A stretch of DNA of 47,308 bases from Bacteroidales bacterium (GTDB lineage: Bacteria > Bacteroidota > Bacteroidia > Bacteroidales > Marinilabiliaceae): assembly GCA_017539645.1 (NCBI GenBank), contig JAFYCM010000029.1, positions 1 to 47,308 of the forward strand, in the 5' to 3' direction. Below are positions 434 to 5,480 of this stretch, in pieces. Within the stretch, counting starts at the first letter, position 1, and each line of letters starts with the position of its first letter. The notes beneath the pieces were generated by a model. It ran no database searches. It was not told the DNA's origin and saw nothing but the letters and a program-made list of their open reading frames with translations. A program made the position numbers and the translations under genes.

Positions 434-441
434 TACTTTTG
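434..441 (+). promoter_or_regulatory. Candidate -7 element for the aromatic amino-acid operon leader
   Basis: TACTTTTG fits the Bacteroidales -7 consensus TAnnTTTG exactly and lies 40 bases before the leader-peptide start codon. No convincing -33 TTTG is found at the usual distance, so this is a candidate from one element and from its position. Confidence 0.5.
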
Positions 442-481
442 CTACGTCGAAAAGACAAATGACAAAAGATATAGAAAGACA

Positions 482-562
482 ATGCTTACCGCACGATTTT
501 ATTTCGGCTTTTACTTTTACTTTTTTGGTTATCGCCAGAAGAGCGGTGGGTGTTGTGAATAA
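482..562 (+). CDS. Phe/Tyr-rich leader peptide (26 aa) of the attenuator
   Basis: An ATG at 482 opens a 26-codon frame ending with TAA at 560-562. Residues 6-17 read FYFGFYFYFFGY: six Phe and four Tyr in twelve positions, far above chance. The rest (MLTAR at the start, RQKSGGCCE at the end) is ordinary. This is the pattern of leader peptides whose translation speed reports charged tRNA levels; here it would report tRNA-Phe and tRNA-Tyr together. The genes that follow make exactly those two amino acids. Its first and last codons overlap the RNA segments that form the alternative hairpins described separately. Translation has not been shown; the call rests on composition, position and RNA structure. 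Confidence 0.85.
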   Translation: MLTARFYFGFYFYFFGYRQKSGGCCE

Positions 563-613
563 AAAAATTTATTATTGATAGCATGAGCCCACCAGAAAAC
601 GGTGGGCTTTTTT
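485..613 (+). promoter_or_regulatory. Transcription attenuator of the Phe/Tyr operon (segments 1-4)
   Basis: Four segments form mutually exclusive pairs. Segment 1 (485-492, CTTACCGC) pairs with segment 2 (543-550, GCGGTGGG) over 8 bp, two of them G-T. Segment 2 bases 545-550 (GGTGGG) also pair with segment 3 (588-593, CCCACC) as antiterminator. Segment 3 (586-593) pairs with segment 4 (601-608) as the terminator. GGTGGG occurs identically in segments 2 and 4, so they compete for segment 3. A ribosome stalled on the Phe/Tyr codons (497-532) would cover segment 1, free segment 2 and allow readthrough. A ribosome reaching the stop codon would cover segment 2 and let the terminator form. The sequence shows the pairings; the mechanism is inferred from classical attenuators. 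Confidence 0.85.
586..613 (+). terminator. Attenuator terminator hairpin
   Basis: AGCCCACC (586-593) and GGTGGGCT (601-608) form a perfect 8-bp GC-rich stem with a 7-base loop, followed directly by T608-613. It lies 20 bases upstream of pheA, after the leader-peptide stop codon, so it acts before the structural genes. Confidence 0.9.
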
Positions 614-632
614 ATTTGTAATAAGAACACAA

Positions 633-1502
633 ATGAAAGAGATAAAAAGAGTAGCCATACAAGGCATAGCAGGAGCGAACCACGAGATAGCTGCGCGCGA
701 ATTTTTCAACGACTACGATGTTGAAGTTGTGCCATGCTTGACGTTTCAAGACCTGTTTGATGCCGTAAAAGCCGACTCGCAACTCTATGGCATTGTAGCG
801 ATAGAAAACACGCTTGTAGGCACCATACAATCGAACTACACGCTACTCAAAGAATCGGGACTGACAGTTATTGGAGAATACAAACTACGTATCAAGCACA
901 ATTTGATGGCACTGCCAGGTGTAAAGATTGAAGAGCTAACCGAAGTTCATTCGCACCCAATGGCACTGCGCCAATGCGAAGCATTCTTCCGTAAATATCC
1001 ACACATACGCCTCGTAGAGAGCGACGACACCGCTCTTTCGGCCAAAGAATTGAGCGAAAAGCAGAATCGCACTATTGGAGCCATCGCCCCAAAATTGGCA
1101 GCAGAACTCTACGGATTGAAAATTCTCGAGCATGGCATTGAAACCAACAAAAAGAATTTCACCCGATTCCTGATTGTCAGTCAACATGGCAAGACGGAAA
1201 TAGACGAACTCTTTGCTCAAAACCGCATCAACCGCGCATCGATAGTGTTTTCACTTCCACAAGCACAAGAAGTTGGCAGTTTGTCAAAAGTGCTTACGGT
1301 GTTTGCTTTCTACGGCATCAACCTAACCAAAATTCAGTCGAATCCTATCGTCGGTCGCGAGTGGGAATATCTCTTCTACATCGACCTTTCGTTCAACAAC
1401 TACACGCGCTACATTCAGGCTGTAGATGCAGTTCGCCCATTGTGCGACAAACTGACAGTGCTCGGTGAATTTGAACTCGGTCGTCAAAGTCATAAAGAAT
1501 AA
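633..1502 (+). CDS. pheA: Prephenate dehydratase
   Basis: This 289-residue protein converts prephenate to phenylpyruvate, the committed step to phenylalanine. The catalytic domain (about residues 5-180) ends with the diagnostic TRF motif at residues 177-179, in KKNFTRFLIV. A C-terminal ACT domain (about 195-285) begins SIVFSLPQAQEVGSLSKVL and should bind Phe for feedback inhibition; its LTKIQSNP segment stands where many homologues have LTKIESRP. No chorismate mutase domain is attached; that activity sits on the DAHP synthase two genes on. The ATG start lies 20 bases after the attenuator terminator. It is the first structural gene of the operon and is likely controlled by Phe/Tyr-dependent attenuation. 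Confidence 0.95.
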   Translation: MKEIKRVAIQGIAGANHEIAAREFFNDYDVEVVPCLTFQDLFDAVKADSQLYGIVAIENTLVGTIQSNYTLLKESGLTVIGEYKLRIKHNLMALPGVKIEELTEVHSHPMALRQCEAFFRKYPHIRLVESDDTALSAKELSEKQNRTIGAIAPKLAAELYGLKILEHGIETNKKNFTRFLIVSQHGKTEIDELFAQNRINRASIVFSLPQAQEVGSLSKVLTVFAFYGINLTKIQSNPIVGREWEYLFYIDLSFNNYTRYIQAVDAVRPLCDKLTVLGEFELGRQSHKE

Positions 1503-1524: not shown

Positions 1525-2685
1525 GTGATAATAGCACCAGCAAAGCGAATAAGCAACGTAGAAGAATACTACTTCTCGCGCAACAACCGTCGTCTCGATG
1601 CCATGCGCAAGAGCGGCGTAGACGTAATAAATCTCGGCATCGGCAGCCCCGATCTTCCTCCAGCCGACGATATTATTGAGACATTAAGCACTGAAGCTCG
1701 CAAACCCAACGTCCATGGTTATCAAAGCTACACAGGCATACCAGAACTCCGTAAGGGCTACGCTGATTGGTATGCCAAGTGGTATGGCGTACAACTAAAC
1801 CCCGACAACGAAATTTTGCCTCTCATTGGTTCTAAAGAGGGCATCATGCATATAATGATGGCATTCATCAACGAAGGCGATGGTGTGCTTGTGCCCAACC
1901 CTGGCTATCCTACATATTCGTCGGTAGCTAAACTCGTTGGTGCTAAGACTATCACGTATAATCTATACGAAGAACTCGGGTGGCAACCGAACTTCGACGA
2001 GCTCGAAAAACTTGACCTCAGCGGTGTGAAAATGATGTGGGTGAATTACCCTAACATGCCAACTGGCGCGCCTGCTTCAATGGAACTATATAAGAAAATT
2101 ATCGATTTCGGTCGTCGACATAACATACTTATATGCAACGACAACCCATATAGCTTCATACTACACGAGAAGCCAATAAGTATACTATCGATAGAAGGAG
2201 CAAAAGACGTAGCAATAGAGCTCAACTCGATGAGCAAAGCGCACAACATGGCAGGTTGGCGTTTTGGTATGGCAGCATCGAATGCCGAAATTATTCAATG
2301 CATACTTAGAGTGAAGAGCAACATGGATAGTGGCGTTTTTCGTCCTATGCAAAGTGCAGCAGCCAAAGCCCTTGCGCTTGGCAAAGATTGGTTCGACGAA
2401 GTGAATCGCACCTATCGCGAACGTCAGACGTATGCATTCGATATTATGGATATGCTCGGATGCAAGGCCGATCGCAAGCAAGGCGGTTTGTTCGTTTGGG
2501 GTCGCATTCCCGACAATTGGAAATCGGCAGAAGCATTGTCGGACGAGATACTACACAAAACGGGCATATTCATTACGCCAGGCTTCATTTTCGGAAGTCA
2601 AGGCGAACGCTTCCTTCGCATATCGCTATGCTCGAAAGTAGAGACTCTAAAAGAGGCAATACGCCGATTGAAAGAGATGAAATAA
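1525..2685 (+). CDS. PLP-dependent class I/II aminotransferase of the aromatic operon
   Basis: A 386-residue fold-type I aminotransferase. Visible landmarks are NLGIGSPDLPP near the N-terminus, NYPNMPTGA and NDNPYS of the PLP pocket, and the Schiff-base lysine at about residue 238 in SMSKAHNMAGWRFG. The start is GTG at 1525, 22 bases after pheA; no better ATG precedes the conserved N-terminal residues. Its position between pheA and the DAHP synthase-chorismate mutase gene suggests it makes Phe and Tyr from phenylpyruvate and 4-hydroxyphenylpyruvate, or transaminates prephenate. The family also includes diaminopimelate and alanine aminotransferases, so substrate is inferred from context only. 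Confidence 0.85.
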   Translation: MIIAPAKRISNVEEYYFSRNNRRLDAMRKSGVDVINLGIGSPDLPPADDIIETLSTEARKPNVHGYQSYTGIPELRKGYADWYAKWYGVQLNPDNEILPLIGSKEGIMHIMMAFINEGDGVLVPNPGYPTYSSVAKLVGAKTITYNLYEELGWQPNFDELEKLDLSGVKMMWVNYPNMPTGAPASMELYKKIIDFGRRHNILICNDNPYSFILHEKPISILSIEGAKDVAIELNSMSKAHNMAGWRFGMAASNAEIIQCILRVKSNMDSGVFRPMQSAAAKALALGKDWFDEVNRTYRERQTYAFDIMDMLGCKADRKQGGLFVWGRIPDNWKSAEALSDEILHKTGIFITPGFIFGSQGERFLRISLCSKVETLKEAIRRLKEMK

Positions 2686-2722: not shown

Positions 2723-3820
2723 ATGGAAAATACATTAGATATAAAACCAATAACGCTAGAAGGCGTAAGTTTGAAACGCCCATTGGTGATAGCAGGACCA
2801 TGCAGCGCCGAAACAGAAGAACAGGTAATGAACACAGCACGTGAATTGGCAGCAAACGGCATCAAAATATTCCGTGCTGGCATTTGGAAGCCTCGCACAC
2901 GACCAGGCACATTCGAAGGCGTTGGCGTTACGGGTCTACCATGGCTTCAGAGAGTTAAGAAGGAGACTGGTATGTACACCGCCGTTGAGGTTGCCACCGC
3001 TCAGCAATGCTACGAAGCCATAAAATACGGCATCGACGTATTGTGGATTGGCGCGCGCACTACAGCAAACCCATTCGCAGTGCAAGAGATTGCCGACGCT
3101 CTTCGCGGCACTGACATTCCCGTGCTTGTGAAGAACCCCGTCAACCCCGACCTCGAATTGTGGATTGGCGCGTTCGAACGTCTCAATCAAGCTGGCGTTA
3201 AGCAACTTGCAGCTATTCACCGCGGTTTCTCGGTATACGAGAAGAGCCGTTTCCGCAACGACCCGCAATGGCAGATACCTATTGAGCTTCATCGCCGTTT
3301 GCCTCAGCTACCTATAATTAACGACCCGAGCCACATCACTGGCGACTCCAATTTGATTCAAGAGGTTGCACAAGAGGCAATGGACCTTAACTTTGATGGT
3401 CTCATTATTGAGAGCCACGAATGTCCAGCCCGCGCTTGGTCGGACGCAAAACAACAAGTTACACCACAACATTTACAACTTATTCTTAATGCACTCGTGA
3501 TACGCGACCATTCCATAGACAACAAGCCACGCACCGAACTTGAAGACTTGCGTATGCAAATAGACGAACTCGACCGCCAACTGCTCAGCTGCCTCGGCAA
3601 ACGTATGCAAGTGTCGGAGAAGATTGCCAAATACAAATTCGAGCATAGCATAACTATCTTGCAACAAGGCCGTTACGAGCAAATTCTCGAAAACCGTCGT
3701 ATGCAAGCTATGCAAAATGGCTTGAACCCCGATTTCGTAGTGAAAGTTTATGAAGACATCCACGAAGAGTCGGTAAACCGCCAGAACAACGTAATGAAAG
3801 AACTCGCTAAGAATAAATAA
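2723..3820 (+). CDS. aroF: Bifunctional DAHP synthase / chorismate mutase
   Basis: This 365-residue protein joins the entry step of the shikimate pathway (PEP plus erythrose 4-phosphate to DAHP) with the branch step chorismate to prephenate. Residues 1-260 are a type I-beta, KdsA-like DAHP synthase with GPCSAE at 25-30, FRAGIWKPRTRPGTFEG, and a late INDPSHITG motif. From about residue 270 an AroQ-type chorismate mutase helix bundle follows (EDLRMQIDELDRQLLSCLGKRM). Prephenate made here feeds both pheA and tyrA of the same operon. The order (synthase first, mutase last) is usual for Bacteroidota. The gene symbol is a family convention; aroG or aroA(Q) are equally used. Confidence 0.93.
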   Translation: MENTLDIKPITLEGVSLKRPLVIAGPCSAETEEQVMNTARELAANGIKIFRAGIWKPRTRPGTFEGVGVTGLPWLQRVKKETGMYTAVEVATAQQCYEAIKYGIDVLWIGARTTANPFAVQEIADALRGTDIPVLVKNPVNPDLELWIGAFERLNQAGVKQLAAIHRGFSVYEKSRFRNDPQWQIPIELHRRLPQLPIINDPSHITGDSNLIQEVAQEAMDLNFDGLIIESHECPARAWSDAKQQVTPQHLQLILNALVIRDHSIDNKPRTELEDLRMQIDELDRQLLSCLGKRMQVSEKIAKYKFEHSITILQQGRYEQILENRRMQAMQNGLNPDFVVKVYEDIHEESVNRQNNVMKELAKNK

Positions 3821-3823
3821 GTT

Positions 3824-4597
3824 ATGAGAATTTGCATTGTAGGAGCCGGCAAAATGGGCACGATACTCGCCGACTCGCTCTGCTTGCAACACGAAGTTGC
3901 TGTTTACGATCGCGACATTACGCGTTTGCAATACGTATTCAACACGCGCCGTCTGATGAAGCTCGACGAAATACGCGAGTTTGACCCTGAATTGCTCATC
4001 AACGCCGTGACGCTCAAGTACACCATAAGTACATTCAACGAAGTGCTGCCATACCTATCGCCAATGTGTATGGTCTCGGACATCGCATCGGTAAAGACGG
4101 GCTTGAAGGAGTTCTACGCATCATGCGGTCATCCGTATGTATCTACTCACCCGATGTTCGGTCCAACATTCGCCAACTTGCGCGAACTTCGCCAGAATCA
4201 CGCCATAATTATTGCCGAAGGCGACCACTTGGGCAAGGTATTCTTCAAGGATTTCTACCAGTCGCTCGGGCTTAATATTCACGAATATACATTCCAAGGT
4301 CACGACGAAACTATTGCCTATTCGCTATCGATTCCGTTCGTATCTACGATGGTTTTTGCTGCGTGCATGAAGCATCAGGACGCGCCTGGCACAACCTTCA
4401 AGAAGCAATACGACATTGCTAAAGGCGTGCTTTCGGAGGACGATTTCTTGCTCTCGGAGGTGCTGTTCAACCCATACACGCCAGCGCAAGTGGAAAACAT
4501 TGTGTCGCAGATGAATAAACTTCTCGACATAATAAAGAGAAAAGATTCTGCTGAGATGTGCGAATATTTAGCTAAACTTCGAGAAAATATTCGATAA
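3824..4597 (+). CDS. tyrA: Prephenate dehydrogenase
   Basis: A 257-residue NAD(P)-dependent dehydrogenase making 4-hydroxyphenylpyruvate, the tyrosine precursor. The N-terminus MRICIVGAGKMG carries the Rossmann GxGxxG at residues 7-12. STHPMFGPTFA is the conserved prephenate-binding region with its catalytic His, and IAYSLSIPFVS lies in the helical C-terminal domain. It is shorter than fused TyrA enzymes and has neither a chorismate mutase nor an ACT domain, so feedback control is not expected on this polypeptide. The gap to the preceding stop codon is only 3 bases, so tight co-expression with the DAHP synthase-mutase is likely. Confidence 0.92.
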   Translation: MRICIVGAGKMGTILADSLCLQHEVAVYDRDITRLQYVFNTRRLMKLDEIREFDPELLINAVTLKYTISTFNEVLPYLSPMCMVSDIASVKTGLKEFYASCGHPYVSTHPMFGPTFANLRELRQNHAIIIAEGDHLGKVFFKDFYQSLGLNIHEYTFQGHDETIAYSLSIPFVSTMVFAACMKHQDAPGTTFKKQYDIAKGVLSEDDFLLSEVLFNPYTPAQVENIVSQMNKLLDIIKRKDSAEMCEYLAKLRENIR

Positions 4598-4625: not shown

Positions 4626-5480
4626 ATGAAAAAGATTTTAGCAATTGCCGTTGTAGCCTCAGCATTAGTAGGTTGCAACAATCATCAGGCAGAAGTAACC
4701 GACTTACAACAAAAAGTTGATACACTTCAAAAAATAATCGATCAGAAAGATAAAAACTTTGCACTCATCGCCGGCACGATGTCCGAGTTGCAACAAAACC
4801 TCAACGTGATAAAGGAGAAAGAGGGATTGATTTCCACCAACCTCAACGAAAGCAACAAAAGCCAACTTCAAGACGACGTTGACGCTATCTACAAAGTGTT
4901 GCTCGACAATAAGCAAAAGGTGAAAAGCCTTGAAGCTCAGTTGCGCAAAGCTACTTCGAACAACAAAGAGCTTCAGCAACTCATCAGCGTACTCCAAGAG
5001 CAAATAGACCAGCAGAACAAGGAGATTGAGAAACTCACCACGATGCTCAAGGATAAAGACCTCGACATCAACGCGCTTACTGGCGCTGTGATTTCGCTCA
5101 CCTCTTCGGTCGATTCGCTTGCAACAGAGAAAGCAAAAGTAGACAAGAGCCTCGCTATCGCAACCAACGAGATTAACACCGTGTTCTATATCGTAGGTAC
5201 AAAGAGCTACCTCAGAGACAAGGGCGTTGTGGAGAAAGACGGCTTGTTCAAGAAGAAAATTCTCGCCGGCGATGTAGACAACCGCATTTTCAACGCAGTA
5301 AATAAAAACGAAGTCACCAAAATCGACCTCGGAGGACGCAGAGCTAAAGTTCTCTCGCAGCACAACGAATCGTCGTACGAGATTGTTGACAATGACGACA
5401 GGACTCAATCGTTAGTCATCAAAAACGCAGAAGCTTTCTGGCAGACGAGCAAATATCTCGTAGTGCAGATAAAAGACTAA
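4626..5480 (+). CDS. Coiled-coil lipoprotein of unknown function
   Basis: A 284-residue protein with a lipoprotein signal (MKKILAIAVVASALVGC; lipid-attached Cys at residue 17). From about residue 22 to 180 it is rich in heptad-like E/K/Q/L repeats and should form a long coiled coil (DLQQKVDTLQKIIDQKDKNF and similar). The last ~90 residues form a compact domain beginning FYIVGTKSYLRDKGVVEKDG. I recall similar coiled-coil lipoproteins in other Bacteroidales but no known function. It follows tyrA by 28 bases and precedes the operon terminator at 5506-5543, so it is probably transcribed with the aromatic genes. No link to aromatic metabolism can be read from it. Confidence 0.85.
   Translation: MKKILAIAVVASALVGCNNHQAEVTDLQQKVDTLQKIIDQKDKNFALIAGTMSELQQNLNVIKEKEGLISTNLNESNKSQLQDDVDAIYKVLLDNKQKVKSLEAQLRKATSNNKELQQLISVLQEQIDQQNKEIEKLTTMLKDKDLDINALTGAVISLTSSVDSLATEKAKVDKSLAIATNEINTVFYIVGTKSYLRDKGVVEKDGLFKKKILAGDVDNRIFNAVNKNEVTKIDLGGRRAKVLSQHNESSYEIVDNDDRTQSLVIKNAEAFWQTSKYLVVQIKD

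Follow-up and report, generated by a model that had tools for sequence, protein, structure and literature searches.

A predicted ribosome-mediated attenuator with a mixed Phe/Tyr leader peptide ahead of the pheA operon in Bacteroidales and their relatives

The window analyzed here, a 47,308-nt stretch of DNA from a Bacteroidales genome, carries near its beginning, on the forward strand, an operon whose content agrees with the initial annotation in that it serves the synthesis of both phenylalanine and tyrosine. The operon consists of pheA, encoding prephenate dehydratase (633..1502; PF00800, E 4.9e-56, with an ACT domain match under the cut-off), a class I/II aminotransferase (1525..2685; PF00155), a DAHP synthase fused to chorismate mutase (2723..3820; PF00793 and PF01817), and tyrA, encoding prephenate dehydrogenase (3824..4597; PF02153, 31.7 bits at a cut-off of 26.5). 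The protein encoded directly after tyrA, at 4626-5480, matches the NCBIfam model NF052320 (Cbp1 family) with 227.7 bits (cut-off 90). Upstream of pheA, a frame on the same strand stops at 384, followed by a putative promoter -7 element of the Bacteroidetes type, TAnnTTTG (TACTTTTG, 434..441, forward strand), and by a short frame that is the subject of this analysis.

This frame, a predicted leader peptide gene (482..562, forward strand), comprises 26 codons plus stop and encodes MLTARFYFGFYFYFFGYRQKSGGCCE; the reported packing of six Phe and four Tyr codons into twelve positions was confirmed by reading it, with ten of codons 6-17 (497..532), the control codons, specifying Phe or Tyr. No other frame of 8-71 codons on either strand of the window is as dense in Phe/Tyr, and among 11 genome-wide matches to six consecutive Phe/Tyr codons, the one in the window is the only one that is clearly a leader. 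A 39-codon frame starting at an out-of-frame ATG (459-578) overlaps the leader and runs across segment 2 (see below); among 13 close loci, the ATG at 459 is also found in the sibling locus L031, and some out-of-frame overlapping frame is present in nine, L031 included. Downstream of the control codons, the following segments were delineated on the forward strand, segments 3 and 4 by alignment and folding: segment 2, GGTGGG, the 5' arm of the antiterminator (545..550), beginning 12 nt past the last Tyr codon; segment 3, the 5' arm of the terminator (585..593), within which 588-593 form the 3' arm of the antiterminator; segment 4, the 3' arm of the terminator (601..609); and the T-run of the intrinsic terminator, read from the sequence (608..613). 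Segment 1 (485..492), a possible protector arm that is not conserved, pairs with 543-550. The complementarities listed in the initial annotation all exist, namely those of 485-492 with 543-550 (8 pairs, including two G-U), of 545-550 with 588-593, and of 586-593 with 601-608, followed by the T-run. The exact duplication of GGTGGG holds as well, the block standing at 545 and 601, with the qualification that the window contains two more copies (29324 and 35370). RNA folding of the window sequence yields -18.6 kcal/mol for the antiterminator (2:3) hairpin and -16.5 kcal/mol for the terminator (3:4).

To place these features in a comparative frame, a leader was defined as a short frame upstream of pheA in which 6 or more of 13 codons specify Phe/Tyr, and 271 distinct loci were used out of 301, 30 having been dropped as too short or duplicate. 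The loci came from the best 80 of 236 relatives in the named collection and from part of the pheA matches in samples of the order, the family, and the class, presumably Bacteroidia (126/295, 65/71, and 90/296 genomes with pheA, respectively), with upstream stretches taken for most, not all, pheA matches. Among the best 80 of 236, the closest locus belongs to a Bacteroidales MAG with a 99% identical PheA, and the other close ones are labelled Marinilabiliaceae. A leader was present in 240 of the 271 loci; among dinucleotide shuffles, the same criterion was reached in 57 of 813, and on the reverse strand in 39 of 271. At 7 or more Phe/Tyr, the counts were 229/271, 14/813, and 13/271, respectively. 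By group, leaders were found in 47/47 and 28/28 named loci, 104/113 order loci, 7/7 family loci, and 54/76 class loci, so that 22 of the 31 loci without a leader at the threshold are among the 76 class loci. The 240 leaders include L031; the window itself is outside this set and was tested separately. Picking the leader starts by Phe/Tyr content favours dense frames; in the tests of terminator and antiterminator, this rule serves only to set the place of the search. The order and number of Phe and Tyr codons and the remaining residues differ widely between leaders, and in each group of loci, Phe codons are more numerous than Tyr codons. Trp codons occur within the Phe/Tyr run of some leaders (for example, L302, L146, and L213), as if Trp supply were also read.

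The motif TAnnTTTG, which we take to be a promoter element at 434-441, is enriched upstream of the leaders: of 231 loci, 175 have it 15-75 nt ahead of the start of the leader, compared to 12 that have it in the adjoining 60 nt further upstream and 13 after shuffling. Leaders with a terminator start with ATG in 230 of 235 cases, under a search rule that favours ATG, and a Shine-Dalgarno-like 4-mer precedes 4 of the 235, a count made without a control.

Of the 240 leaders, 235 have a terminator (hairpin plus T-run, score of at least 20) after the control codons, compared to none of 240 when that stretch was shuffled; it ends at a median of 35 nt upstream of the pheA match. The antiterminator pairing is significant at p≤0.05 against mononucleotide shuffles in 203 of these 235 loci and fails this test in 32, the shuffle p values taking no account of phylogeny; for the window, tested with 2000 shuffles, p is 0.015. 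Segment 2 is represented by 123 different sequences among the 235 loci and pairs with the segment 3 of its own locus at a median score of 19.5 vs 13.0 with those of other loci. The own pairing is better than 95% of the pairings with other loci in only 108/235 because G-rich arms are common to many loci. Pairs of segments 2 and 3 are exemplified by GGTGGG/CCCACC in the window, CAGTGAGC/GCTCACTG in L037, and GGCAGGA/TCCTGCC in Parabacteroides; the leader of Parabacteroides distasonis is the one in L105.

An alignment of relatives, which the initial annotation had proposed for detecting conserved codons and compensatory changes in all three stems, was built from 31 leaders (30 relatives and the window); the Phe/Tyr codons, the terminator, and the antiterminator are kept, with covariation, and the 1:2 stem is not. 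In the terminator stem, 98.4% of the cells are paired and 45 are changed on both sides; for the antiterminator, the values are 93.5% and 6, and all six of its pairs form in 27 of the 31 leaders. None of 500 shuffles matched either stem in the percentage of paired cells, the number of cells changed on both sides, or the covariation score. When shifted by 1-3 columns, the stems were less than 60% paired. Two further measures, the number of pairs with a both-side change and the number of pair types, were unremarkable (41 and 480 of 500 shuffles, respectively, for 3:4; 59 and 278 for 2:3). The position of segment 2 relative to the leader is also maintained: in the 203 loci, its median start is 11 nt (quartiles 9-13) past the last Phe/Tyr codon, and its median extent is from -12 to -4 with respect to the stop codon of the leader, which in the window is at 560, with segment 2 at 545-550.

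Tyr codons are present in 236 of the 240 leader cores, and the four cores without Tyr precede pheA genes with no aminotransferase, DAHP synthase, or tyrA in the examined stretch downstream. We compared the cores with the gene content of the genomes, locating tyrA by PF02153 (a match in 66/76, 58/60, and 58/61 genomes) and DAHP synthase likewise by its matches, found in all 76 and 17 genomes checked, with only weak ones in G058, G278, and G282; a genome was considered linked when a DAHP synthase or tyrA hit lay within 9 kb of pheA on the contig. The 160 genomes with a leader then comprise 150 linked ones (including five first called unlinked and one initially without data, moved after the DAHP synthase search), six in which pheA is apart from both genes, and four unassigned (G278, G282, G058, and G260). 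Tyr-less cores occur in 4 of the 6 unlinked genomes vs none of the 150 linked ones, and the remaining two unlinked cores have one Tyr each, located before all Phe codons or all but the first. The six unlinked genomes carry four family labels (f29 twice, f19, f38 twice, and f99), a count uncorrected for phylogeny; in f19, the operon is still linked in two other genera (G132 and G229), whose leaders contain Tyr. A simpler rule, that the Tyr codons follow tyrA, was dropped: 23 of the 150 linked genomes have only DAHP synthase near pheA, with tyrA elsewhere or without a clear match, and keep their Tyr codons, and no clear leader was found close before tyrA in seven loci around tyrA genes apart from pheA (L335, L336, and L338-L342). 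The median Tyr share is 0.50 in these 23 genomes and 0.43 in the 127 with tyrA nearby. Because Tyr is kept where only DAHP synthase is near, the Tyr codons accompany DAHP synthase-chorismate mutase, tyrA, or both, rather than tyrA by itself. Genomes with the family label f157 (for example, loci L251, L302, L311, and L312) have pheA-DAHP synthase operons with Tyr-rich leaders and tyrA not nearby; most of them lack a strong tyrA match and may make Tyr by another route.

The genes detached from pheA have leaders of their own. In 5 of the 6 unlinked genomes, a Phe and Tyr leader with a terminator precedes the detached genes, as illustrated by MIKNISVFAYFYYYFYFSNK (L323), before aminotransferase-DAHP synthase-tyrA, and MNNTFGYYAFYYYFFYNN (L326), before tyrA and DAHP synthase. 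For G244, there was no tyrA match, and the short stretch examined before its DAHP synthase held no leader. Three more split genomes, outside the six, all have a Phe and Tyr leader before the detached operon. In two of these (G142, loci L017/L334, and G108, locus L195), that operon is aminotransferase-DAHP synthase-tyrA and no leader is visible at pheA, where the attenuator seems to have been lost; in the third (G284), the pheA leader has 5 Phe/Tyr in 13 codons, one of them Tyr, and is under the threshold. In total, ten leaders of detached operons were identified in eight genomes; a hairpin with a T-run is present in 10/10 (without a shuffle control), and the antiterminator reaches p≤0.05 in 8/10, both of those in G284 being above (0.11 and 0.49). 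In G099 and G284, two tandem Phe/Tyr leaders, each with a terminator-like hairpin, precede the detached aminotransferase-DAHP synthase (L330, at 3251 and 3385, in reversed orientation; L332, at 182 and 321) and possibly form a double attenuator. As far as sequence comparison can tell, the leaders of the split operons are probably the best support for the sensing of two amino acids.

Taken together, these observations make it highly probable that the pheA leader works by ribosome-mediated transcription attenuation, with charged tRNA-Phe and charged tRNA-Tyr sensed jointly. The claim of attenuation with dual sensing in the initial annotation is thus well supported by comparison, through the conserved and covarying parts and through Tyr codons that are missing only where neither DAHP synthase nor tyrA is near pheA; its four-segment form did not hold up. 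Of the complete 1:2, 2:3, and 3:4 set that had been described, the latter two pairings are conserved and covary, and the 1:2 stem was not borne out as a conserved feature in three tests. The first test across loci found it in 8/75; some segment-1 pairing reached p≤0.05 in 30 of 203 loci vs 10 expected; and in the 31 aligned leaders, 1:2 was 51.2% paired vs 51.8% in shuffled sequences, all 8 pairs forming only in the window and L031 (where p is 0.00) and the next best leader having 6/8. In several Parabacteroides, the best candidate for segment 1 shared positions with the promoter-like element. A classical four-segment attenuator, in which a functional protector (485-492/543-550) causes an untranslated leader to terminate, could claim the full pairing in the window and L031, its dominance in the full-length fold of the window RNA, and the excess of 30 loci over the 10 expected, but given the outcome of the three tests, we consider it improbable. 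In the window species, the 1:2 stem may act, in which case stalls on later codons would have a weaker effect. Since this stem is without comparative support and is full only in the window species and L031, the general design is apparently one of three segments.

Other readings fare worse. If the device sensed Phe only and the Tyr codons were incidental, the excess of Phe codons in every group, the first place of pheA in the operon, and the persistence of Tyr codons in the 23 linked leaders without tyrA nearby would be accommodated, but not the near-universal presence of Tyr, its absence only from leaders of pheA genes that have neither DAHP synthase nor tyrA nearby, or the Tyr-rich leaders before detached operons, and we regard such a device as quite unlikely. 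TnaC is an arrest peptide that senses a free amino acid, and the conserved position and Phe/Tyr content of the leader could be taken to indicate a peptide of this type, responding to free Phe or Tyr rather than to slow codons; the wide variation in the order and number of Phe/Tyr and in the other residues, together with a composition that goes with the genes of the operon, leaves this explanation very little room. That the hairpin only serves to end transcription of the upstream gene and has nothing to do with pheA is hardly credible: a same-strand frame does end at 384, but a promoter-like element and the leader lie in between, the hairpin ends close before pheA, and its 5' arm has an alternative pairing with segment 2.

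A bivalent, three-segment, ribosome-mediated attenuator is the most likely interpretation of these sequences, and it would operate as follows. RNA polymerase would transcribe the leader with a ribosome coming behind. When Phe-tRNA or Tyr-tRNA is scarce, the ribosome would stop on one of the ten control codons, all of which are upstream of segment 2, so that 545-550 would pair with 588-593, no terminator would form, and the operon would be transcribed. When both tRNAs are ample, the ribosome at the stop codon would cover segment 2, allowing the 3:4 terminator to form and transcription to end near 613. Which segments a ribosome covers is judged here from its usual footprint; combined with the spacing of segment 2, this footprint implies that a stall on a control codon would leave segment 2 free and that a ribosome at the stop codon would cover it. 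In the common design, no 1:2 protector stem would be needed. The sequences themselves show the leader, the terminator, the antiterminator, their spacing and covariation, and the agreement of the codons with the gene content of the operon; such a device would further entail translation of the leader, stalling, termination, a response to both amino acids, and coupling of transcription to translation.

A broader proposal, to which we give an even chance, is that a three-segment bivalent attenuator without a protector is class-wide and probably ancestral. Under this proposal, read-through would be the default for an untranslated leader, termination would be permitted by a ribosome at the stop codon, itself acting as the switch, no Shine-Dalgarno-like signal would be needed, and, where pheA was split from DAHP synthase and tyrA, the sensing of Phe and Tyr would have been divided between two daughter attenuators. 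If true, attenuation by tRNA sensing would be a widespread and probably old layer of aromatic amino acid control across a large bacterial class found in the gut and the environment. It would also constitute an argument for close transcription-translation coupling in that class; Bacteroidota are not in the list that a recent paper gives of phyla classed as showing runaway transcription (PMC13323073). The split operons amount to a natural experiment in which control codons can be followed against gene content, and the missing protector predicts read-through without translation, unlike the textbook trp/phe scheme.

Among known systems, the pheL-pheA attenuator of Enterobacteria is similar in its Phe-rich leader peptide and in having an antiterminator and terminator before pheA. 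The device described here differs from it in that Phe and Tyr codons are mixed, there is no conserved protector stem, the operon also has tyrA and DAHP synthase, and a Shine-Dalgarno-like 4-mer is found in only 4/235 leaders (again, without a control). The Rfam Phe_leader model (RF01859) matches the window weakly, at 29.7 bits (E 0.021), and, in 14 loci, gives a single match (L045, 45.0 bits), both under the gathering threshold of 55. The only other Rfam match in the leader is Trp_leader (20.0 bits, gathering threshold 41), with no match to a riboswitch or T-box family, and at the gathering threshold, the whole window yields three tRNAs only. The Bacteroid-trp motif (RF01692), which has a role in trp regulation, was not among the Rfam matches of the window or of the relatives' loci searched. 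This motif has been described as cis-regulatory in Bacteroidetes (PMC2864571).

A structured 5' element of pheA in Flavobacterium psychrophilum and other Flavobacteriaceae has been reported, along with clues to leader peptides before amino acid operons, for which attenuation was suggested (PMC9723704). The gene, pheA, is the same, and the section on this element gives no leader sequence, amino acid specificity, or segments; the element may be the same device in another group. The suggestion that a combined Phe/Tyr sensor in Bacteroidales is little described accordingly stands in part: no Phe/Tyr attenuator in Bacteroidales was found in the open-access literature searched, but this structured element was already on record for Flavobacteriaceae. 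Long 5' UTRs of Bacteroides thetaiotaomicron contain short frames that recall attenuation leader peptides (PMC7366714), and the words phenylalanine and pheA are absent from the main text of that report. In Acholeplasma, attenuation via Phe codons was proposed for uORFC-13-1 before aroF (PMC8632094), which belongs to another phylum and precedes another gene; the account of it given there includes at least one Phe codon and does not mention Tyr codons.

Multivalency as such has precedents in the ilvGMEDA and thr attenuators of E. coli, in which one leader has codons for more than one amino acid, and which resemble the present device in this respect and differ in the amino acids sensed and in the phylum. 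Attenuation has also reportedly been predicted in several phyla by Lopatovskaya in 2010. The kind of attenuator is known; its pairing of Phe with Tyr, the missing protector, its spread, and the division of control codons along with the operon appear to be new within the open-access literature searched.
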